DNA from: Stieleria varia
GTDB taxonomy: Bacteria; Planctomycetota; Planctomycetia; Pirellulales; Pirellulaceae
Length of the DNA stretch: 64,000 nucleotides
Assembly (NCBI RefSeq): GCF_038443385.1
Contig: NZ_CP151726.1
Coordinates: 5,952,001-6,016,000, forward strand
Direction of reading: 5' to 3'
In this document: positions 17,497 through 54,074 of the stretch, piece by piece
How the letters are laid out: every line of letters starts with the position of its first letter
How positions within the stretch are numbered: position 1 is the first letter of the stretch
Notes under the pieces: model-generated
What the model was told of the DNA's origin: nothing
The model's database searches: none
Seen by the model: the letters and a program-made list of their open reading frames with translations, nothing else
Program-made: the position numbers and the translations under genes

Positions 17497-17967
17497 TCAC
17501 TCAGGCCATTGTGAGGGAATCAAAGTGGTGGCAGGTCGGCCTGGTTCTTTCGCCACGCGGACGGAGTCACGTACATGGTCGTGACACGTGATGCACAGCG
17601 AGGTCAGTTGCAAATACGTGAACGCTGCCGCTTGGTGATTTTGTTTCTCCGCGAGCTCCTCCAATTGGCGACATTGGCGACGAAATTCGGCGCTGAAATG
17701 CTCATAGATGGTGTCACGTGGGCGTGGCCACTCTGCCGCTTCGCTGATGTGTCGCATCTCAACGGCGCCACGTTGGATGGCTCGATAGTCCCTACGCAAG
17801 AGGCCCTCCAGGACGCTCTGGGAATACGTGAGCTTTGAACGCATCAACAGACCTTCGGACTCGTTGATGCGAGCCACGGGAGGAGGATCCGCTTGGGTGG
17901 CGTTGGTGAGTAAGAAAGCCGAGCCGATCAGTGCGACCGCCGACACAAGAATCAAAAATAGTCTCAT
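17497..17967 (-). CDS. Periplasmic c-type haem protein (cytochrome c'-like)
   Basis: A 156-residue protein. MRLFLILVSAVALIGSAFLL is a signal peptide. A helical domain follows with one haem-binding motif near the C terminus, CITCH (C125, C128, H129). A single C-terminal CxxCH on a four-helix protein is the arrangement of cytochrome c'-type proteins, which bind gases such as NO. The helical part MRSKLTYSQSVLEGLLRRDY is consistent. It stands downstream of a sigma-54-like site (18026-18042) and beside the truncated haemoglobin and ldhA genes. Exact family is inferred. Confidence 0.75.
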   Translation of the reverse strand: MRLFLILVSAVALIGSAFLLTNATQADPPPVARINESEGLLMRSKLTYSQSVLEGLLRRDYRAIQRGAVEMRHISEAAEWPRPRDTIYEHFSAEFRRQCRQLEELAEKQNHQAAAFTYLQLTSLCITCHDHVRDSVRVAKEPGRPATTLIPSQWPE

Positions 17968-18025: not shown

Positions 18026-18042
18026 GGCATCTTTCGAGCCAG
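18026..18042 (-). promoter_or_regulatory. Possible weak sigma-54 promoter of the cytochrome gene
   Basis: On the minus strand, CTGGCTCG-AAAG-ATGCC keeps the invariant GG and GC at the required 10-base spacing but departs from the consensus at three other positions. Transcription would start about 48 bases before the cytochrome ATG. Chance matches of this quality are not rare, so the call leans on the stronger ppsA site nearby. Confidence 0.3.
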
Positions 18043-18224
18043 ATCATGGCTTGGATGACGAAATACGCGATATTTCAGCGAGAGGCATTCGTCAAAAACT
18101 GTATGTGTGCGAGGTTGCACAGGATGAGGCAAGGAGAGCTGTGCGAAGACGCTCGCTTTCGGTTTTCGAAGCGTAATAATTCTGGCGAAGCCCATTACGA
18201 AGTGCGCCAACAAAGGCATCCTCC

Positions 18225-18641
18225 TTACCAGACCAGAGGTAGCAATCGATAGGTGCTCTGCTGATAGGAGGAGTACGCCTCGAAATGCTTTCTCAGCATG
18301 GCCTCTTCGTGAAGTAGCTTGGCGATCAGCACGCCCAGCAGCACTAACCAAAGCACTGTTCGCCAGACGGAGAGGGGGCTCAACAGCAGTGCTGCGGTGA
18401 ACAGCAGCAGACCTGTGTACATGGGATGGCGAATCCATCGATAGGGTCCGTGTGTTGTCAGGACGGTTCGCTGGGTGGGCGAAGGCTGGATACGGATTCG
18501 ACTCCAGCCGATCGCCCACCATGCCGCGATGGCGATCAACGCACCGGGCAGGCTGAGTCCGAGTGCGATCGGGTCAGGATGCCGCCAGTCTGCGGACAAC
18601 ACGATCACCGCAGAAAGAACGAACTGCGCCAGAACGAGCAT
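18225..18641 (-). CDS. Isoprenylcysteine/phospholipid-methyltransferase-like membrane protein
   Basis: A 138-residue integral membrane protein with about four hydrophobic segments. THGPYRWIRHPMYTG (about 63-77) and the downstream HEEAMLRKHFEAYSSYQQ are hallmarks of the ICMT/PEMT (NnrU-like) S-adenosylmethionine-dependent methyltransferase family. The target is not known in bacteria. Its ATG directly follows the TGA of the truncated haemoglobin gene (TGAATG on the minus strand), so the two are translationally coupled. Confidence 0.82.
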   Translation of the reverse strand: MLVLAQFVLSAVIVLSADWRHPDPIALGLSLPGALIAIAAWWAIGWSRIRIQPSPTQRTVLTTHGPYRWIRHPMYTGLLLFTAALLLSPLSVWRTVLWLVLLGVLIAKLLHEEAMLRKHFEAYSSYQQSTYRLLPLVW

Positions 18642-19025
18642 TCAGCCACCCACGTTCGTATCGCCGGTGACCCGATCCTTGTAGATTGCCAGTCGAGCCA
18701 ACGCGTCATCCAGGTCCTTTTGGTTCACATCATGAGATTGCATGGCGTCGGCAAAGTGCTCACAGAACCGGGCAAAGTGCCGAGCGGTGATCCCGCGACC
18801 GGCGTGCACCTGAGTCAGTTCTGCGCCGGAGTACGCGACGGGGCCGTCGAACGCGGCCGCCAAGAACTGATACTGCATGTGTTTGAGTCGCTCCATCGAC
18901 GTATCGGCAAAAAACGGCGACAACATGGGGTCGTCCATGATGCGGTCGTAGGCTTCCTGAACGATTTTTGCGACGGCTGCGGTTCCCCCCAGGCGGTCGA
19001 AAAGTACTCTCGCGTCGTCGGTCAT
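18642..19025 (-). CDS. Group I-like truncated haemoglobin
   Basis: A 127-residue globin of the 2/2 truncated class. The LFDRLGGTAAVAKIV start, MLSPFFADT, MQYQFLAAAFDGPVAYSG and the proximal His in LTQVHAGRGIT (H74) are typical; the glycine pairs fit the truncated fold. Such globins bind O2 or NO and protect against nitrosative stress. It sits about 115 bp downstream of ppsA and is coupled to the membrane methyltransferase. Together with ldhA and the c-type haem protein this suggests a low-oxygen response. Confidence 0.93.
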   Translation of the reverse strand: MTDDARVLFDRLGGTAAVAKIVQEAYDRIMDDPMLSPFFADTSMERLKHMQYQFLAAAFDGPVAYSGAELTQVHAGRGITARHFARFCEHFADAMQSHDVNQKDLDDALARLAIYKDRVTGDTNVGG

Positions 19026-19139: not shown

Positions 19140-21563
19140 TTATTGCTCTCTACGGAGCTCTTTTTCGATTTCCAGGACATGAATGGTTGTTGGCAGGACC
19201 GCGTCGGGCGTCAAAGAGATGCTGTCGATTCCTTGCCGGACGAGGAATTCAGCAAACTCTGGATAGTCGCTCGGGGCCTGACCGCAGATCCCGATCTTCA
19301 CCCCTTTTTCCTTCGCAACCTGGATCACTGCGGCGATCGTTCGTTTGACCGCTTCGTTTCGTTCATCGAACACATGGGCGACGATTTCGGACTCGCGATC
19401 CACCCCGAGGGTCAGTTGCGTCAGGTCATTGGATCCGATCGAGAAACCATCAAAGATTTCTGCGAACTGATCGGCGAGGATCACGTTGCTGGGAATTTCG
19501 CACATGACATAGATCTCCAATCCGTCCACGCCACGAATCAGCCCGTGCTGGGTCATTTCCTCTTGAACCTTTCGTCCCTCCTCGACGGTTCGGCAGAATG
19601 GAATCATCACTTTGACGTTCTTGAGTCCCATTTCGTCGCGAACACGTTTCATCGCTCGACACTCTAGGGCAAAAGCCTCGCGATAGCTGGGGTGATAGTA
19701 ACGCGAGGCGCCACGAAAACCGAGCATCGGGTTTTCTTCTTTGGGTTCAAAATCTTTGCCGCCCAGCAGGTTGGCGTACTCGTTCGTTTTGAAATCACTC
19801 AGCCGTACGATGACGTCCTTGGGATAAAACGCCGCGGCAATCATCGCGATACCTTCGGACAGACGATCGACGAAGTATTCCGGTTTGTCATCGTACCCTC
19901 GCGTGGCTTCTTCCACCGCAGCCCATGTCGCATCGTCCAGTGAGTCGAATTCCAGCAGCGCTTTGGGATGCACTTTGACGTAATTGGTGATGATGAACTC
20001 TTCGCGTGCCAGGCCGACGCCATCGTTGGGGATGAATGAGAGTGCGAGAGCTTCGTCAGGCGTCGCGACATTCATCATGATCTTTGTCTTGGGCCGAGAG
20101 AGAGCCCCCAAATCAATCGTCTCCACGTTAAATGACAAAGCACCGTCGTAGACGAACCCGGTTTCTCCTTCTGCGCAACTGACTGTCACCATCTGTCCTG
20201 GCGAGAGCATCTGCGTCGCCCGTGACGTTCCAATGATGGCGGGCAACCCTAGTTCACGACTGATGATGGCAGCGTGGCAGGTGCGACCGCCGCGGTTGGT
20301 GATGATCGCCGATGCCCGTTTCATCACGGGCTCCCAATCTGGATCCGTGATGTCGGCCACCAAGACCTCACCGTCGCAGAAATCGCTCAATTGGGTAACA
20401 TCCCGAATCAATCGAACACGCCCCTGAGCGATTTTTGATCCGACGGCTCTGCCGGACAAGATTTTCGTGCCCGATTGGGTCAAGTGGAAACGTTCCAGCG
20501 AATTGGTCAATCGGTGCGACTGAACCGTCTCCGGCCGTGCTTGAACAATGAACAGTTCGCCCGTCCTGCCGTCCTTTGCCCATTCGATGTCCATCGGACG
20601 AGACTCGCCAGTGAGTTGACTGTAGTGATCTTCGATATCGCACGCCCACCGGGCCAACTGCAAGATGTCATCGTCTTTCAACGCAAAACGTTGTTGATCT
20701 GTCTGGCTGACCGGCACACTCTTGGTCATCTTGCTGCCCCCATCGTCGTACACCAGTTTGACCGCCTTTGTTCCCAACGTACGTTTCAGGATCGGGCGGA
20801 AACCCTCACGCAGTGTCGGTTTGAAAACGTAGTACTCGTCTGGATTCACGCTGCCTTGGACCACGGTTTCACCCAAGCCGTAGGCCGCATTGATCAAAAC
20901 GGTGTCGCGGAACCCTGTTTCGGTATCGATAGAAAACATCACGCCGGCGGCGGAAAGATCCGAGCGCACCATTTGCTGAATGCCGATCGAAAGCGCGACC
21001 TGCATCTGGCCGTAACCGCGTTTGGCACGATAGGACATCGCTCGATCAGTGAATAACGATGCAAAGCAACGCCGACATGCGTCCAGCAGTGAGGCTTGAC
21101 CACGGACGTTGAGATAGGTCTCTTGTTGGCCCGCAAAACTGGCATCCGGCAAATCTTCCGCCGTCGCGCTGCTGCGAACCGCCACATCGGCCAGCTCACC
21201 TCCGCCCCTGCTCAATTGGTGATAGGCCTCCACGATGGCGTGCGACAACGCATCGGGCAGCGGCGTCTCTAAGATCATGTGCCGGATCATCAGCCCATGA
21301 TGCTGCAGACTGCCGACATCGCCGATGTTCATTCCGCTGAGCAACTGTTCAATCTTTTCATCTAAGCCGCTCTCGGACAAAAACAAGCGATACGCATCCG
21401 CCGTGGTGGCAAAGCCGTTTGGAACGCGGATGCCTCGTGGTGCCAACTGTTGGTACATTTCTCCCAACGATGCATTCTTGCCCCCGACGCTGGGGATATC
21501 GTTGATTCCGATGTCAGAGAACCAGCGAATGTATTTGGTGGCCGATACAACAGCGGTGCTCAT
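19140..21563 (-). CDS. ppsA: Phosphoenolpyruvate synthase
   Basis: An 807-residue enzyme of full family length (pyruvate + ATP + water to PEP + AMP + phosphate). The N-terminal ATP-grasp domain starts YIRWFSDIGINDIPSVGGKN and contains VRSSATAEDLPDASFAGQQETYL. The mobile phosphohistidine domain has GGRTCHAAIISRELGLP. The C-terminal TIM barrel has NPMLGFRGASRY, SIGSNDLTQL and GICGQAPSD. ATG 21563 gives the conserved N terminus; an upstream extension to 21695 is non-coding in character and contains the promoter. Probably the first gene of the leftward haemoglobin/methyltransferase unit. A sigma-54-type promoter precedes it. Confidence 0.96.
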   Translation of the reverse strand: MSTAVVSATKYIRWFSDIGINDIPSVGGKNASLGEMYQQLAPRGIRVPNGFATTADAYRLFLSESGLDEKIEQLLSGMNIGDVGSLQHHGLMIRHMILETPLPDALSHAIVEAYHQLSRGGGELADVAVRSSATAEDLPDASFAGQQETYLNVRGQASLLDACRRCFASLFTDRAMSYRAKRGYGQMQVALSIGIQQMVRSDLSAAGVMFSIDTETGFRDTVLINAAYGLGETVVQGSVNPDEYYVFKPTLREGFRPILKRTLGTKAVKLVYDDGGSKMTKSVPVSQTDQQRFALKDDDILQLARWACDIEDHYSQLTGESRPMDIEWAKDGRTGELFIVQARPETVQSHRLTNSLERFHLTQSGTKILSGRAVGSKIAQGRVRLIRDVTQLSDFCDGEVLVADITDPDWEPVMKRASAIITNRGGRTCHAAIISRELGLPAIIGTSRATQMLSPGQMVTVSCAEGETGFVYDGALSFNVETIDLGALSRPKTKIMMNVATPDEALALSFIPNDGVGLAREEFIITNYVKVHPKALLEFDSLDDATWAAVEEATRGYDDKPEYFVDRLSEGIAMIAAAFYPKDVIVRLSDFKTNEYANLLGGKDFEPKEENPMLGFRGASRYYHPSYREAFALECRAMKRVRDEMGLKNVKVMIPFCRTVEEGRKVQEEMTQHGLIRGVDGLEIYVMCEIPSNVILADQFAEIFDGFSIGSNDLTQLTLGVDRESEIVAHVFDERNEAVKRTIAAVIQVAKEKGVKIGICGQAPSDYPEFAEFLVRQGIDSISLTPDAVLPTTIHVLEIEKELRREQ

Positions 21564-21633
21564 GGCAGGACTCACATGAGAGAGTGAGAGGAACGAGCAG
21601 CGTCTACAACAGGCTGCTGGGCCATTTCGAACG

Positions 21634-21650
21634 TGCAATCGGTGTGCCAG
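21634..21650 (-). promoter_or_regulatory. Sigma-54 (-24/-12) promoter of ppsA
   Basis: The minus strand reads CTGGCACACCGATTGCA, which matches the sigma-54 consensus TGGCAC-N5-TTGCW at all specified positions with exact GG-N10-GC spacing. The start of transcription would be near 21623, giving a leader of about 60 bases before the ppsA ATG at 21563. Sigma-54 promoters need an ATP-driven activator bound upstream. Direct repeats CGCCAATCG at 21678-21686 and 21690-21698 are a possible activator site. Confidence 0.75.
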
Positions 21651-21763
21651 AGACTTACGCGGAGCGCTCAAGTGGTTCGCCAATCGGAGCGCCAATCGTT
21701 TACTCGGATCGCCTGGGTTTTGAAGAATCTTTGCGACCGTCGCTGTCGTACTTTCACGTCGAT

Positions 21764-21780
21764 TGGCACGATATCTGCTA
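21764..21780 (+). promoter_or_regulatory. Sigma-54-like promoter facing the stress-protein genes
   Basis: On the + strand TTGGCACGATATCTGCTA carries GG-N10-GC with one departure (CTGC instead of TTGC) from the consensus. It points toward the small membrane protein and usp genes, 695 bases downstream. Between lie a hairpin element and a 27-bp inverted repeat, so the leader would be long. It is divergent to the ppsA sigma-54 site 113 bp away. Confidence 0.6.
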
Positions 21781-21835
21781 CTAACAGCCTATTGATTGAG
21801 TGAAGCGCGAGGCGTACGCAGTCGGGCCTAACGCT

Positions 21836-22173
21836 GGACTGCTCAAAGTTTGGTGTTGTTTCTTTTTGGGTTTGCGAAAGTTTATGTCCTACTGCCGGCG
21901 CAGCTGGTGGTCCCCAGTGAGCCTCAGGCGCTAGCCGTGGGCCTGAAGCTGCCGGCGCAGCTGGTGGTCCCCAGTGAGCCTCAGGCGCTAGCCGTGGGCC
22001 TGAAGCTGCCGGCGCAGCTGGTGGTCCCCAGTGAGCCTCAGGCGCTAGCCGTGGGCCTGAAGCGGATTGTGGTGCCGGCCCACGGCTAGCGCCTGAGGCT
22101 CACTTTGGATTGCGATGCATGGAACAAAAACATGGACTGAAAAAACAATGTCAACACCAAACTTTGAGCAGTC
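21836..22173. mobile_element. MITE-like hairpin element with terminal inverted repeats
   Basis: A 338-bp non-coding element. Its ends GACTGCTCAAAGTTTGGTG (from 21837) and the reverse complement at about 22155-22173 form 22-bp perfect terminal inverted repeats. Inside, a 57-bp unit is tandemly triplicated (21892-21948, 21949-22005, 22006-22062). Each copy carries the left arm of a 28-bp stem; the single right arm is at 22077-22104. The right half is nearly identical to the units at 38.5-39.8 kb. No transposase frame is present, so any movement would need a transposase supplied in trans. The open frame through the triplication is a repeat artefact. Confidence 0.8.
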
Positions 22174-22270
22174 AGGCCTACCGCACTGCCCGGTGCCTTA
22201 CGGCCCACGGCTCACTTTTTCGTTCCCAAGTTCAGCTAAATCATCAGCCCGCTAGGCGCGGATGATTCAT

Positions 22271-22340
22271 CAGCCGGCACGCGATAGCGTCCGGTTCCCG
22301 ATTACAGGCGTGAGAACCGGACGCTATCGCGTGGCGGCTG
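22271..22340. repeat. 27-bp-arm inverted repeat (large hairpin)
   Basis: Arms 22271-22297 and 22314-22340 are reverse complements with one mismatch in 27; the inner 20 bp (CACGCGATAGCGTCCGGTTC and its complement) are perfect. The loop is 16 bases. It lies in the leader between the sigma-54-like promoter and the usp genes. It could be a transcription or RNA-stability element, or a small mobile palindrome. Confidence 0.85.
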
Positions 22341-22474
22341 AAATGCGCAGACTGTTTTCGTGCCAATCCGCGTAAACCGTTTCGTGCAAACGTATTGCGA
22401 AGACTGTAGCGAGCCAGCGTGAATTATCCGCGCCTCGGGTCGCGATCTTTACATGTTTCAACGGGAGTACGCAA

Positions 22475-22591
22475 ATGTCCGACGAAAGATCCTCCGAGCA
22501 CCTCCGGGAACCGGTATTCTGGACACTTATCTTTGCGCTCGCCGTCGGGCTGATGTTGCTCATAACGGGAAAGATTGCCGGATTTTATTGA
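22475..22591 (+). CDS. 38-residue single-span membrane protein
   Basis: A short frame, ATG 22475 to TGA 22589-22591, with GGGAG 10 bases upstream. It reads MSDERSSEHLREPVFWTLIF and continues ALAVGLMLLITGKIAGFY. That is a charged N-terminal third, one hydrophobic span of about 20 residues (VFWTLIFALAVGLMLLI), and a short tail. The layout resembles tiny subunits or regulators of membrane enzymes such as CydX or CcoQ, but I see no specific family. It lies 118 bp upstream of the universal stress protein gene on the same strand and is probably in the same transcript. Coding is supported by ribosome site and topology only. Confidence 0.6.
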   Translation: MSDERSSEHLREPVFWTLIFALAVGLMLLITGKIAGFY

Positions 22592-22709
22592 GCCAATCGT
22601 TCCCGCTATTCGGTTCTCACCCCGTGACCGAATCGCTCACATGCGCGACGTTGTGGCGCATCGCGTTGCTCCAATTCGCCAATCATCCGACCAGCACAAG
22701 AGAGCTACC

Positions 22710-23624
22710 ATGCGAAAAATCATCTTAGCGAGCGATGGATCCAATCATGCAGACGAAGCCGCTTGGTTTCTGTCGCATTTGGTGCACGACGAGCCGCTTG
22801 AGATCATTGTGTGCACCGTCCTGACTCGAAATCCGAACCTGAGAGACGACACGACGAGCGATGCGATCAACGATTTGAATCGACAGACCGAGCACGCAAG
22901 TCGGGCCTTTGATCGAGTCTCCGGCATGTTCACGGGGGCCAACGTCACGGTCCGTCAGCTTGTACGGGTCGGACGTCCGCAAGACGTGCTGATCGAAGTC
23001 GCCCGAAACCTACGCGCAGATCTCATCGTCGCCGGAGCCGTGGGACACTCACGTATCACCAGAATGCTGCTGGGCAGTACCAGTGACTATCTCGCCACGC
23101 ATGCGGACTGCAGTGTTCTGATCGTGCGTCCGACCGGATTACGATCGGGTGATCGTCCATTACGCATTGCCGTGGGATACGACGAGACCGGCCCTGCGCA
23201 AGCCGCTGTGGAAGAACTGGCTGATTTTCGTTGGGGAGCAAACACCACCGTGAATCTGTTGACAGCGGTACCACTTCATGCCGATGCGAGCTTCCTGCCG
23301 GTCGATGGACAAACGCATACCGAACGGGTGAAGGAGGCAATCGAATCGGTCAGGGAACAGATTCGTTGTGTGGCACCGAACACCAATGGATACCTGCTAG
23401 AGAACAATCACGTCGGCGATGCCCTGGTAAACTTCGCCGAAGTCCATCAGTGCGACCTCGTCGTCGTCGGTGAAACACAGCGGAGCACCCTGGGACGATT
23501 CCTGATGGGCAGTGTTTCACGATTCGTTCTTCGACATGCCCCGTGCAGCGTCTGGATCACCAGGAATCGAATGTTGCACGGTATCAAAAAAACGGAGTCG
23601 CACAGTGAATCAACACACCGATAG
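22710..23624 (+). CDS. Tandem universal stress protein (two Usp domains)
   Basis: A 304-residue protein of two Usp domains. Domain 1 begins RKIILASDGSNHADEAAWF and ends with the ATP-binding motif GAVGHSRITRMLLGS and ADCSVLIVRP. Domain 2 begins LRIAVGYDETGPAQAA and ends GETQRSTLGRFLMGS, in which the second glycine of the G-2x-G-9x-GS pattern is Gln, so it may bind ATP poorly. ATG 22710 gives the domain start; the frame continues upstream but without conserved sequence. Tandem Usp proteins rise in energy or oxygen stress. The next gene overlaps it by 20 bp. Confidence 0.92.
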   Translation: MRKIILASDGSNHADEAAWFLSHLVHDEPLEIIVCTVLTRNPNLRDDTTSDAINDLNRQTEHASRAFDRVSGMFTGANVTVRQLVRVGRPQDVLIEVARNLRADLIVAGAVGHSRITRMLLGSTSDYLATHADCSVLIVRPTGLRSGDRPLRIAVGYDETGPAQAAVEELADFRWGANTTVNLLTAVPLHADASFLPVDGQTHTERVKEAIESVREQIRCVAPNTNGYLLENNHVGDALVNFAEVHQCDLVVVGETQRSTLGRFLMGSVSRFVLRHAPCSVWITRNRMLHGIKKTESHSESTHR

Positions 23625-25263
23625 CCAACACGCCGATAGCCAACACACCGACAGCCAGCGAAACAATGCGTTGGTCAGAGATCTACAGGATCCAAACGCC
23701 TATCCCGGAATCGATGTGCAGACGGTGGACTTGCATGAGACGCACATCTCGTGGGTCTTTTTGGCTGGCCCCTACGCGTTCAAAATCAAGAAACCGCTGA
23801 AGAACAGTTTCTTGGATTACTCCACACTGGCTCAACGCAAGTATTTTTGCGAAGAAGAACTGCGGCTGGATCAACGCTTTGCTCGCGAATTGTACCTGGA
23901 TGTTGTTCCGATCACTCAAGAAAACGGGCGGTGGAAGGTCGGTGGTCAAGGAGAACCGCTCGAGTACGCGGTTCGAATGAAACGCTTTCCTGAGGATGCA
24001 TTGCTGAGTGTGAAAGCCCAGTCTGGCGAGTTGTCACACGAAGACATCAACCGATTGGCAACACGCATCGCGGATTTCCATCAAGCCGCCCGGCGACTGG
24101 GTGATAACGACCAAAACACGGACCTTAGCACCGACTTGGGGACTGCCGAAAGCATTCAGCGTGCCGCGTCGGATAACTTGGATGAACTGTCCGAAGTCGC
24201 AGGCGGACCCGCCGAGTTCGCGTTTGAGTTTGTGCGTGACTGGACCGGGAAAAAAGCTCAGACGCTTCGGCAAGAGTTTATCAAACGTCGCGAGAACGGA
24301 TTTGTCCGAGAGTGTCACGGCGATTTGCATCTTGCCAACATCATCGGGTGGCATGGCGAACTGATTCCCTTTGACGGAATCGAGTTCAATGACGAGTTTC
24401 GCTGGATTGATGTGGTCAGCGATGCCGCCTTCACGGCGATGGACCTAAAATCGATGGGGCTGAAACATCTCTCCAGAAGCTTTATCAACACGTATCTTGA
24501 GCGCACCGGCGACTATTCATCACTCTCGGTGATGCAGTGGTACCTTGTTTATCGGGCAATGGTTCGAGCCAAGGTCGCCTTGTTGCGATCCCATCAATCG
24601 GGTCTGACACAGGCGGAACGTGATGAAATCGACGTCGATGTACGCAAACACGTCCGCTTGGCGCATTTATATGCCGTCGGCTCACTACCTGGCATCTTCA
24701 TCACGCATGGCGTCAGCGGCAGCGGTAAGACGACCGTGAGTGAACAACTTGTCCAGCGTTTTGGCGTGATTCGCATTCGCAGTGATGTCGAACGTAAACG
24801 GGAGTTTGACATCGACAGTTCTCAGCATCCTGATGATACGGTCAAGAATGAACTCTACTCGGCTGCCGCGACCGAAAGCACCTATCGTCGACTGCGTCGT
24901 TTAGCGCGTGGTATCGTACGAGACGGATATACGGTGGTGGTCGACGCCACTTTTTTGAAGCGCCGGCAACGCGACCGATTTCGATCCCTGGCGTCGCGTG
25001 AGGGAGTACCATTTGGCATACTCGACTGCAAAGCCGCCCCCGAGACGCTTCGTCAGCGTATCATTGATCGTGCAAAGGCCAACACCGACGCGTCAGATGC
25101 TGATCTTGCGGTCCTGGAGCGACAGTTGAGCACGCGAGAGCCGTTGGATCGACGAGAGCTGCCTGAGGTGGTTGACCAAGTAAAATTTGGCCTGCAAAGA
25201 GATGAGAGTGAGGATCTGTCAGTTCACTCGATCAAGGAAATGGCTGAACGAACGACAAAGTAG
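23605..25263 (+). CDS. Aminoglycoside-phosphotransferase/P-loop kinase fusion
   Basis: A 552-residue two-domain protein. The N-terminal half is an APH-like kinase fold, with [15 protein letters not shown] (nucleotide-binding Lys) and [12 protein letters not shown] (catalytic HGDxH..N, about residue 234) followed by PFDGIEFND. The C-terminal half is a P-loop kinase with [14 protein letters not shown] near 369-377 and [15 protein letters not shown]. This fusion is often found with Usp and PEP synthase genes. GTG 23605 is preferred: it follows GGAG by 7 bases and overlaps the usp stop by 20 bp. The first 16 residues are a [10 protein letters not shown] repeat. Substrate unknown; resistance is unlikely to be its role. 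Confidence 0.85.
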
Positions 25264-38455: not shown

Positions 38456-39803
38456 GCCGGGGCTGTTCAACAGTTTGGGCTTGTGTCTTTTCGGGTTTGC
38501 GCAAGTTATGTCCCTACTGCCGGCGCAACTGGTCACCCCAGTGAGCCTCAGGCGCTAGCCGTGAGCCTGAGGCGGATTGTGGTGCCGGCCCACGGCTAGC
38601 GTCTGAGGCTCACTTTGATTGCGATGCATGGAACAAAAACATGGACTGAAAAAACAATGCCAACTCCAAATTTTGAGCAGTCCAGCTAAGTCCCTACTGC
38701 CGGCGCAACTGGTCACCCCAGTGAGCCTCAGGCGCTAGCCGTGGGCCTGAGGCGGATTGTGGTGCCGGCCCACGGCTAGCGCCTGAGGCTCACTTTGATT
38801 GCGATGCATGGAACAAAAACATGGACTGAAAAAAACAATGCCAACTCCAAATTTTGAGCAGCCCAGCTAAGTCCCTACTGCCGGCGCAACTGGTCACCCC
38901 AGTGAGCCTCAGGCGCTAGCCGTGGGCCTGTGGCGGATTGTGGTGCCGGCCCACGGCTAGCGCCTGAGGCTCACTTTGATTGCGATGCATAGAACAAAAA
39001 CATGGACTGAAAAAACAATGTCAACTCCAAATTTTGAACAGTCCAGCTAAGTCCCTACTGCCGGCGCAACTGGTCACCCCAGTGAGCCTCAGGCGCTAGC
39101 CGTGGGCCTGAGGCGGATTGTGGTGCCGGCCCACGGCTAGCGCCTGAGGCTCACTTTGATTGCGATGCATGGAACAAAAACATGGACTGAAAAAACAATG
39201 CCAACTCCAAATTTTGAGCAGTCCAGCTAAGTCCCTACTGCCGGCGCAACTGGTCACCCCAGTGAGCCTCAGGCGCTAGCCGTGGGCCTGAGGCGGATCG
39301 TGGTGCCGGCCCACGGCTAGCGCCTGAGGCTCACTTTGATTGCGATGCATGGAAAAAAACATGGACTGAAAAAACAATGCCAACTCCAAATTTTGAACAG
39401 TCCAGCTAAGTCCCTACTGCCGGCGCAACTGGTCACCCCAGTGAGCCTCAGGCGCTAGCCGTGAGCCTAAGGCGGATTGTGGTGCCGGCCCACGGCTAGC
39501 GCCTGAGGCTCACTTTGATTGCGATGCATGGAAAAAAACATGGACTGAAAAAACAATGCCAACTCCAAATTTTGAGCAGTCCAGCTAAGTCCCTACTGCC
39601 GGCGCAACTGGTCACCCCAGTGAGCCTCAGGCGCTAGCCGTGGGCCTGAGGCGGATTGTGGTGCCGGCCCACGGCTAGCGTCTGAGGCTCACTTTGGATT
39701 GCGATGCATGGAACAAAAACATGGACTGAAAAAACAATGCCAACTCCAAATTTTGAGCAGCCCAGCTAAGTCTAGCCGCCTCGGTTCGGCCCCAAGTGAA
39801 ACA
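38456..39803. other. Intergenic region filled by the repeat array
   Basis: This 1348-bp gap is almost wholly the tandem array. The 55 bases before it (from CTGTTCAACAGTTTGGGC) look like a diverged left end of the element, imperfectly matching the reverse complement of the unit ends. The 33 bases after the array lead into the 3' end of the convergent selO gene. No gene is visible. Confidence 0.8.
38511..39770. repeat. Seven-copy tandem array of ~180-bp hairpin units
   Basis: Units begin (TCCCTACTGC) at 38511, 38691, 38872, 39052, 39232, 39411 and 39590, with periods of 179-181 bp and only a few base differences between copies. Each holds a 28-bp inverted repeat starting AGTGAGCCTCAGGCGCTAGC (for example 38720-38747 and 38767-38794, perfect in unit 2) around a 19-base loop, then a conserved GCGATGCATGGAACAAAAAC spacer. 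It is the same family as the element at 21836-22173, but amplified. No spacer is unique, so this is not a CRISPR array. Short open frames within it are artefacts. Confidence 0.95.
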
Positions 39804-52649: not shown

Positions 52650-54074
52650 CTAACGAACGAAGTCGTTGATATCGATCGCGAGCGATTTGATTTTGCTGCG
52701 TAGGGTGACGCGGGAGATGCCCAAGATGTTTGCCGCCTTGAGTTGATTTCCAGAGGTGTGCGTCAAAACCTGTCGAATCAATTGCCGTTCCGCGATCGTG
52801 ATCGCTTCGTGGTAGAGATTGGTGCTACCAGCGTTCAAGCGATCAGCGACGAAACGTTCGGACACAAGATCGGTCGTCTCGGGCTGCGCGTCACCGAGAA
52901 ATAGTTCCCCGGCCATCGGCGGCAAAAAGTCAGGCAGCAGCACATTCCCCCTGGCTGTGAGCAGGGATTGTTTCATCGCATTTTCCAGCTCTCGCACATT
53001 TCCCGGCCAATGATACTGGTTCAAAACTTCCAGAGTTTCGGGGGCGATGGTCCGGATGTCTTTTCCAAACTCGCTGCTGTAGCGTCTCAGGAAATACTCG
53101 GCAAGAATCTTGATGTCGTCTTCACGTTCACGCAGCGGCGGCAAGAGGATGGTGACCACGCTGAGGCGAAAATACAGGTCGGCTCGAAAGAGTCCTTCGG
53201 AGACCAACTGTTTGAGATCGTGATTGGTTGCCGCAATGATTCGCGTGTCGACCGTGATGGGTGTGTTGCCGCCGACACGTTCAAAGGTCTGATCTTGCAG
53301 GACACGCAAGAGTTTGGCTTGGGTCATCGGTGACATATCGCCAACTTCGTCCAGAAAAAGCGTGCCGCCGTCGGCCTGCTCTAGTTTTCCGATCCGCTGT
53401 CGGTGGGCGTCGGTGAACGCGCCTTTTTCGTGGCCGAAGATTTCACTTTCCAGCAACGCGTCGGGGATCGCGGCGCAATTGATCGCTTGAAAGGGTCCAT
53501 TGGCGCGAGCGCTGTGATGATAGATGGCTTGCGCAACGACTTCTTTACCTGTGCCGCTTTCTCCTTGCAGCAACACGGTCAGGTTCTGCGGCGCGACTCG
53601 GCCGATGGACTTGTAGACTTCCTTCATCGCCCTGCATCGACCGACAATCGCGTCGCTGAGCGCATCATGCGATTGCCCGTCATCCGACAGCACCGGTTGA
53701 ACCCTCACCATACGGCTCAGGTTGAATGCCTTCTCCAGCAAGCTACGGATTTCATCCAGTTCCAGCGGCTTGAACAGATAGTCATACGCTCCCAACTTGG
53801 TGGCTTCGATCGCCGATTGGACCGTCCCATGCCCGGTGATAAAAATGAAGGGAACGCGTGGATCGATTTCACGCAAGCGAGTAAACAGCTCGATGCCGTT
53901 GGTGTCTGGCAGACTCAAGTCGAGGACAACGACGTCGGGTTTGGATTGAACAAAGAGAGCCTGCCCCTCAGCACCACTGCTTGCCGTCAAAACCGTCGTC
54001 GTATCACTTCCAAAGGCGCGTTCGAACGCCTTCAATATGGACGCTTCATCGTCGATGACTAACAGGCTTTGCAT
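52650..54074 (-). CDS. NtrC-family sigma-54-dependent response regulator
   Basis: A 474-residue protein of three domains. The receiver has phospho-acceptor D52 ([10 protein letters not shown]), the paired acidic residues VIDDE, and Lys in LFKPLEL. The AAA+ domain has Walker A GESGTGKE near 175 and the sigma-54 contact loop GAFTDA. The C-terminal Fis-like helix-turn-helix reads [34 protein letters not shown]. It would switch on sigma-54 promoters on phosphorylation by the adjoining kinase, whose gene overlaps it by 16 bp. It is the only sigma-54 activator in the window. Confidence 0.95.

Follow-up and report, generated by a model that had tools for sequence, protein, structure and literature searches.

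Two motifs that resemble sigma-54 promoters lie between a gene of the phosphoenolpyruvate synthase family (ppsA) and a universal stress protein (Usp) gene on the opposite strand, and they raise the question of whether both are real promoters and which genes they would serve. The initial annotation read them as a divergent pair with joint control of ppsA, a haemoglobin gene and Usp genes. The motifs were analyzed in the window, which is the whole 64-kb stretch of DNA and sits in a 9.72-Mb chromosome, and in related genomes. The features of the locus are listed below.

17497-17967, minus strand: CxxCH (haem c motif) protein, read from the sequence
18026-18041, minus strand: weak sigma-54-like site before the CxxCH gene, score 9.5
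18106-18121: candidate activator dyad TGTGC-N6-GCACA, 9 of 9 defined positions
18140-18155: second candidate dyad, 8 of 9 positions
18225-18641, minus strand: PEMT/ICMT-type methyltransferase (PF04191), abutting the globin gene
18642-19025, minus strand: bacterial-type (truncated) globin (PF01152), 114 bp after ppsA, with the same order in 7 congeners
19140-21563, minus strand: ppsA (phosphoenolpyruvate synthase family), with PPDK_N, PEP-utilizers and PEP-utilizers_C domains
21634-21649, minus strand: sigma-54-type -24/-12 element TGGCACACCGATTGCA, 0 mismatches to TGGCACN5TTGCW
21764-21779, plus strand: divergent sigma-54-type element TGGCACGATATCTGCT, 1 mismatch to TGGCACN5TTGCW
21837-22173: MITE-like repeat bounded by 22-nt terminal inverted repeats, with three further copies inside at a spacing of 57 bp
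22270-22341: inverted repeat (strong hairpin), 28 nt, 96% complementary, 16 nt between the arms
22475-22591, plus strand: 38-aa ORF with one hydrophobic stretch (MSDERSSEHLREPVFW...), from a pattern scan
22710-23624, plus strand: universal stress protein (PF00582, two stretches)
23590-25263, plus strand: AAA_33 kinase-like gene (PF13671), overlapping the end of Usp and found downstream of Usp in 7 congeners

Two divergent sigma-54-type elements

The description of the motifs in the initial annotation was confirmed in the sequence. The minus-strand element fits the consensus without mismatch and leaves a gap of 70 bp to ppsA, whose ATG begins at 21563 (minus strand), a start that agrees with that of its relatives in the alignment. 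The plus-strand element departs at one position, and the GG-N10-GC core is intact at both sites. They point apart with a spacing of 114 bp, and the reported 9-bp direct repeat, CGCCAATCG, is present between them at 21678-21686 and 21690-21698, with its two copies 12 bp apart. With a weight matrix that we set from the consensus, the minus-strand site ranks first and the plus-strand site, scoring 15.5, ranks second among sigma-54 scores in the 64-kb window. Transcription of ppsA would be expected to start at about 21624 (minus strand), and that from the divergent site at about 21789 (plus strand).

With up to two mismatches allowed, the window has 35 matches where 38.1 are expected, which is background, and perfect matches are only mildly above the reversed-pattern control genome-wide (21 vs 13). 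Therefore, one single site carries little weight, and the motif count alone was dropped as evidence. Sites scoring at least 15.4 number two in the window against 0.33 expected, and 0/300 shuffled windows had two divergent sites of this strength no more than 300 bp apart.

The plus-strand motif had been said to point toward the usp genes. The direction holds but the nearness does not, with 930 bp separating the site from the Usp ATG at 22710. The MITE-like repeat, the long hairpin and the 38-aa ORF intervene, and no ATG or GTG ORF of at least 100 aa begins within 400 bp of the site in the window. The inverted GGCTAGCGCCTGAGGCTCAC words and CACCAAACTTTGAGCAGTC-like ends of the MITE-like repeat are shared with an array of about 180-bp units at 38541-39762. 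Look-alikes of the 38-aa ORF lie directly before ppsA in G011, G225 and G233 (4 finds in the 46 ppsA loci scanned), and the ORF may encode a small island protein that has been missed.

On the other flank, the CxxCH protein is probably secreted, as judged by eye. It gave no informative Pfam match, and its relative in G233 displays a weak likeness to cytochrome c' (PF01322, E 0.0071) that is below the cut-off. The sigma-54-like site before its gene is weak alone, because 35 window sites score at least 9.

Recurrence of the sites in related genomes

Every genome whose ppsA match reached E <= 1e-80, 45 in total, entered the ppsA set; they came from two overlapping genome sets (23/117 and 42/241) and, together with the locus of the window itself, gave 46 loci. 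Forty-two of the 45 genomes belong to the same family as the window and three to other families of the order. At 22/46 loci the 150 bp upstream of ppsA contain a same-strand site scoring at least 12, compared with 0/46 for the reversed motif, and at 30/46 one scoring at least 8, compared with 7/46; near relatives are included among these loci and the counts are not independent events. The motif before ppsA thus reappears at the same position in relatives, and a chance origin of the ppsA-side site was rejected on the basis of this recurrence. Among the other ORFs of the same loci 25/239 reached 12, several of which are island genes. By genus labels, eight of the 22 sites fall in the genus of the window and 14 are spread across 10 other genera.

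The site is not universal, with 24/46 loci below 12 and 16/46 below 8. In two of the misses (G225 and G233), one or two same-strand genes precede ppsA and the site is located before those genes, scoring 11.7 in G225 and 13.2 in G233. The congener G011, whose ppsA is intact, lacks a site both ahead of this gene and ahead of the small ORF that precedes it, and was not counted as having a site ahead of the ppsA operon, since an opposite-strand gene intervenes. Because the site recurs across genera and rpoN is present in the genome, sigma-54 control of ppsA is well supported by sequence comparison. Joint control of ppsA and the globin gene is plausible, given that the two are consecutive genes on one strand, with ppsA first, in the window and in 7 congeners. 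The joint control initially proposed is partly supported; its extension to the Usp gene of the window is not, since the plus-strand site is 930 bp from that gene and no site in the nearest 250 bp scores above 3.7.

The order globin-ppsA / Usp-kinase is shared by seven congeners (G001, G002, G003, G005, G008, G012 and G013). In 7/7 of them TGGCAC-N5-ATGC is found 34-36 bp before the Usp ATG, and a sigma-54 promoter on the divergent Usp side is well supported for these syntenic congeners. A stretch of 25 letters, GATTTTGGCACAAATCATGCAAACC, is common to six of the seven, and the rest of the intergenic sequence is mostly different between the subgroups G001/G003/G005/G012 and G002/G013. The site is kept though the divergent gene changes in five further genomes. 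It is located 25 bp before another Usp gene in G131, before a P-type ATPase in G022, before a like ORF in G265, and, with a score of 12.1, before a Kinase-PPPase gene in G221, which we take to belong to the family of PEP-synthase regulatory proteins. The ORF behind the site in G123 looks like pyruvate:ferredoxin oxidoreductase by its first residues; a like protein of G055 was run against Pfam.

The Usp protein of the window matches that of the congeners only partially (about 33-37%) and, judged from this comparison, its gene (22710-23624) is not the congeners' Usp gene. Homologues of the window Usp have a site scoring at least 12 at 14/30 loci, where the own locus is included as a miss, compared with 0/30 for the reversed motif. 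The plus-strand site in the window may be either a distant promoter or a relic.

Sites scoring at least 12 in these loci precede genes for Usp, an Acg-like nitroreductase (G225 and G233), a P-type ATPase and others. They also precede genes for iron-sulfur and NAD-binding proteins, apparently subunits of a NiFe hydrogenase that occurs in loci of this kind. For the nitroreductase next to ppsA in G225, the top PDB hit is 2ymv, 'ACG NITROREDUCTASE' (E 1.3e-18). Elsewhere in the congeners, genes encoding a CBS protein and a protein like cytochrome c are preceded by sites accompanied by CGCACA, and these shared sites may be real. The own genome also has a perfect site 31 bp upstream of a thioredoxin gene, a relative of which is present in the island of six congeners. 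A lipoprotein-like CxxCH gene at L194 (G012), L208 (G001) and L218 (G003) carries CGCACA and GTGTGCG half sites together with a nearly perfect sigma-54 site 53 bp upstream of the ATG; the same DNA is present in G005. Since like sites recur in many related genomes, they suggest a gene set of the low-oxygen-survival type run by RpoN; a low-oxygen role of the window genes would follow from gene content only.

RpoN, the linked activator family and its candidate DNA site

The genome encodes RpoN (one PF04552 match, E 1.5e-61), which was also found in 92/98 genomes and in 84/84 of those of good quality; no rpoN match was obtained in G008, one of the seven congeners, which is 85% complete. There are 27 PF00158 matches to AAA+ activators in the genome, 21 of them with E below 1e-50. 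A motif with core and context, its recurrence before orthologous genes, RpoN and AAA+ activators in the genome are thus all present. One sigma-54 activator domain is located in the window itself, about 31 kb from the island (53148-53648, minus strand, within a 481-codon frame), and has the loop GAFTDA where the usual motif of these activators is GAFTGA.

A gene for an NtrC-type response regulator adjoins the globin-ppsA pair, whole in six congeners and partial in G008, where it is cut by the contig end. The copies from the own genome and from G225 possess receiver, sigma-54 activation and Fis-type HTH domains. In G225, G233 and G131, relatives of this activator with at least 67% identity are encoded on the other side of ppsA, 4-9 kb from its start, and G225 also has a PAS histidine kinase gene beside the activator gene, with a perfect sigma-54 site before the kinase gene. 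This places the activator gene near ppsA at 10/45 relatives' loci, and it was not detected in the stretches retrieved for the other 35; the count excludes weaker matches (30-46% identity) close to ppsA in G022 and G049. The own copy (C1:6563866-6565278, 83% identical) is about 590 kb from the island and not linked to it.

The direct repeat between the two promoters might be a diverged activator site. GCGCCAAT is found at a like place in G003 and G013, and other congeners have diverged. Two candidates were rejected: GCCAATC, taken from the 9-bp repeat, occurs in 0/16 of the Usp promoter set, and TTCGCACAG has no occurrence within one mismatch in 21501-22720.

Among the top words upstream of the ppsA sites is CGCACA, present at 15/24 loci against 5.0 expected (24 of 30 upstream regions were used after six near-duplicates were dropped). 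It is present in 8/16 of the Usp promoter set against 3.6 expected (p 0.015). A mirror half to the left of this word makes up the dyad TGNGC-N6-GCACA, with T, G, G and C at -10, -9, -7 and -6 in 14, 19, 20 and 27 of the 36 CGCACA rows. At least three of these four letters are found in 17/36 of all rows and, without five near-duplicates, in 15/31 compared with 53/394 in the background (p 1e-5). The signal comes from the ppsA set (12/21) and is not clear in the Usp set alone (3/10). The dyad is found at 16/46 ppsA loci compared with 1/46, a comparison which is partly circular. No dyad of 8 of 9 positions or better is present between the two promoters of the window.

Upstream of the CxxCH-protein gene, the dyads at 18106 and 18140 are arranged 34 bp apart, start to start. 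In shuffles the dyad in the promoter of this gene has p values of 0.003 for the window (200 bp above the site), 0.074 for G233 and 0.081 for G011.

CGCACA above a sigma-54 site was counted 25 times vs 17 in the control, and 33 vs 14 in the control (14 genus genomes). The left half of the dyad is not enriched genome-wide (6/43 dereplicated sites vs 53/394, p 0.54; seven island loci and near-duplicate keys were dropped, and the background includes island loci too), and as a genome-wide predictor the dyad failed. In the own genome, the word occurs in the 220 bp above 3/11 other perfect sites, the 11 being hand-picked from 20. TGNGC-N6-GCACA is accordingly a tentative activator site, put forward from word statistics.

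Readings of the locus and known low-oxygen gene sets

With high confidence, we favor the reading that the locus has two divergent RpoN promoters, of which the ppsA(-globin) side is active and the plus side is the counterpart of the congeners' Usp promoter. RpoN would bind the minus-strand element and drive ppsA, and then probably the globin gene by read-through. The plus-strand promoter would correspond to the one located about 35 bp before Usp in the congeners; the repeat element and a change of the Usp gene would have left the Usp of the window 930 bp away, and the site would now yield either a long leader extending as far as the 38-aa ORF and Usp, or else a vestigial transcript. The likeliest activator would be the NtrC-type response regulator family linked to the island in relatives, and low oxygen would be the signal.

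A serious competitor, to which we give somewhat less than an even chance, is that only the ppsA promoter works and that the plus-strand site is a relic stranded by the arrival of the repeat and the change of Usp, with Usp read from elsewhere. The distance to Usp, the repeat in between, the lack of an ORF of at least 100 aa starting within 400 bp and the partial match of about 33-37% to the congeners' Usp all agree with this; however, the site scores 15.5, keeps GG and GC intact and is not visibly decayed, and the interval to Usp includes a small ORF that has look-alikes in relatives. It is highly improbable that both motifs are chance matches and that the genes use sigma-70 or ECF promoters: although matches to the relaxed motif are no commoner than expected in the window and perfect ones genome-wide number 21 against 13 in the control, the sites recur in the same position in different genera, for which the reversed motif gives little or no signal, and the Usp-side site is found in 7/7 syntenic congeners.

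The sites could also be real and depend on another activator than the linked NtrC-type regulator, perhaps one that binds the CGCCAATCG repeat. The genome has 21 strong sigma-54 activator domains, the own copy of the linked family is 590 kb away, and between the window promoters the dyad is missing and the repeat is present. We nevertheless consider this unlikely, as one activator family is repeatedly linked to ppsA in different arrangements and GCCAATC is not enriched in the Usp promoter set (0/16). Returning to the favored pair of RpoN promoters, a wider proposal, which we regard as possible though short of probable, is that the DosR-like low-oxygen or dormancy set of Pirellulaceae forms one sigma-54 regulon with a single NtrC-type two-component activator acting at TGNGC-N6-GCACA dyads. 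Its members would be Usp, ppsA, globin, the CxxCH protein, the Acg-type nitroreductase, NiFe hydrogenase, the P-type ATPase, the CBS protein and PFOR.

The mycobacterial regulator DosR is of the NarL type and is not known to use sigma-54, whereas the loci studied here have sigma-54-like sites and an NtrC-type candidate regulator. Rv2626c of mycobacteria is a CBS protein. In the passages cited here, the DosR regulon contains genes for Usp, truncated haemoglobin, an Acg-type nitroreductase, a cation ATPase (ctpF) and Rv2626c, described as a hypoxic response protein (PMC4090907, PMC11876180); the kinds of genes are alike, which is a likeness of content and not of membership. Among the microoxia-induced genes of Bradyrhizobium diazoefficiens, the rows cited likewise include phosphoenolpyruvate synthase, Usp, CBS and nitroreductase genes (PMC6515984). 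None of these rows is marked there as a target of NifA plus RpoN; some rows for Usp, CBS and nitroreductase genes carry the FixK2 mark, and the phosphoenolpyruvate synthase row carries neither (PMC6515984).

In Planctomycetia, Usp genes (COG0589) are reported to be enriched among predicted sigma-54 targets (PMC12316311), just as Usp would be under sigma-54 control in the congeners here. The main text of that paper contains none of the terms 'phosphoenolpyruvate synth', 'ppsA', 'COG0574' or 'hypoxi', and the passages cited here describe no divergent ppsA/Usp pair. No account of a sigma-54 ppsA/Usp pair was found in searches of openly licensed literature. The promoters are ordinary in kind, and what is new is the proposed connection of these genes, as a set, to sigma-54.

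These results offer a candidate activator and a candidate DNA site, and thus a concrete, testable start on how planctomycetes may respond to low oxygen. If the proposal is true, the same dormancy-type gene set would be wired to different regulators in different phyla, i.e. to DosR in mycobacteria, in part to FixK2 in Bradyrhizobium, and to sigma-54 with an NtrC-type activator here.
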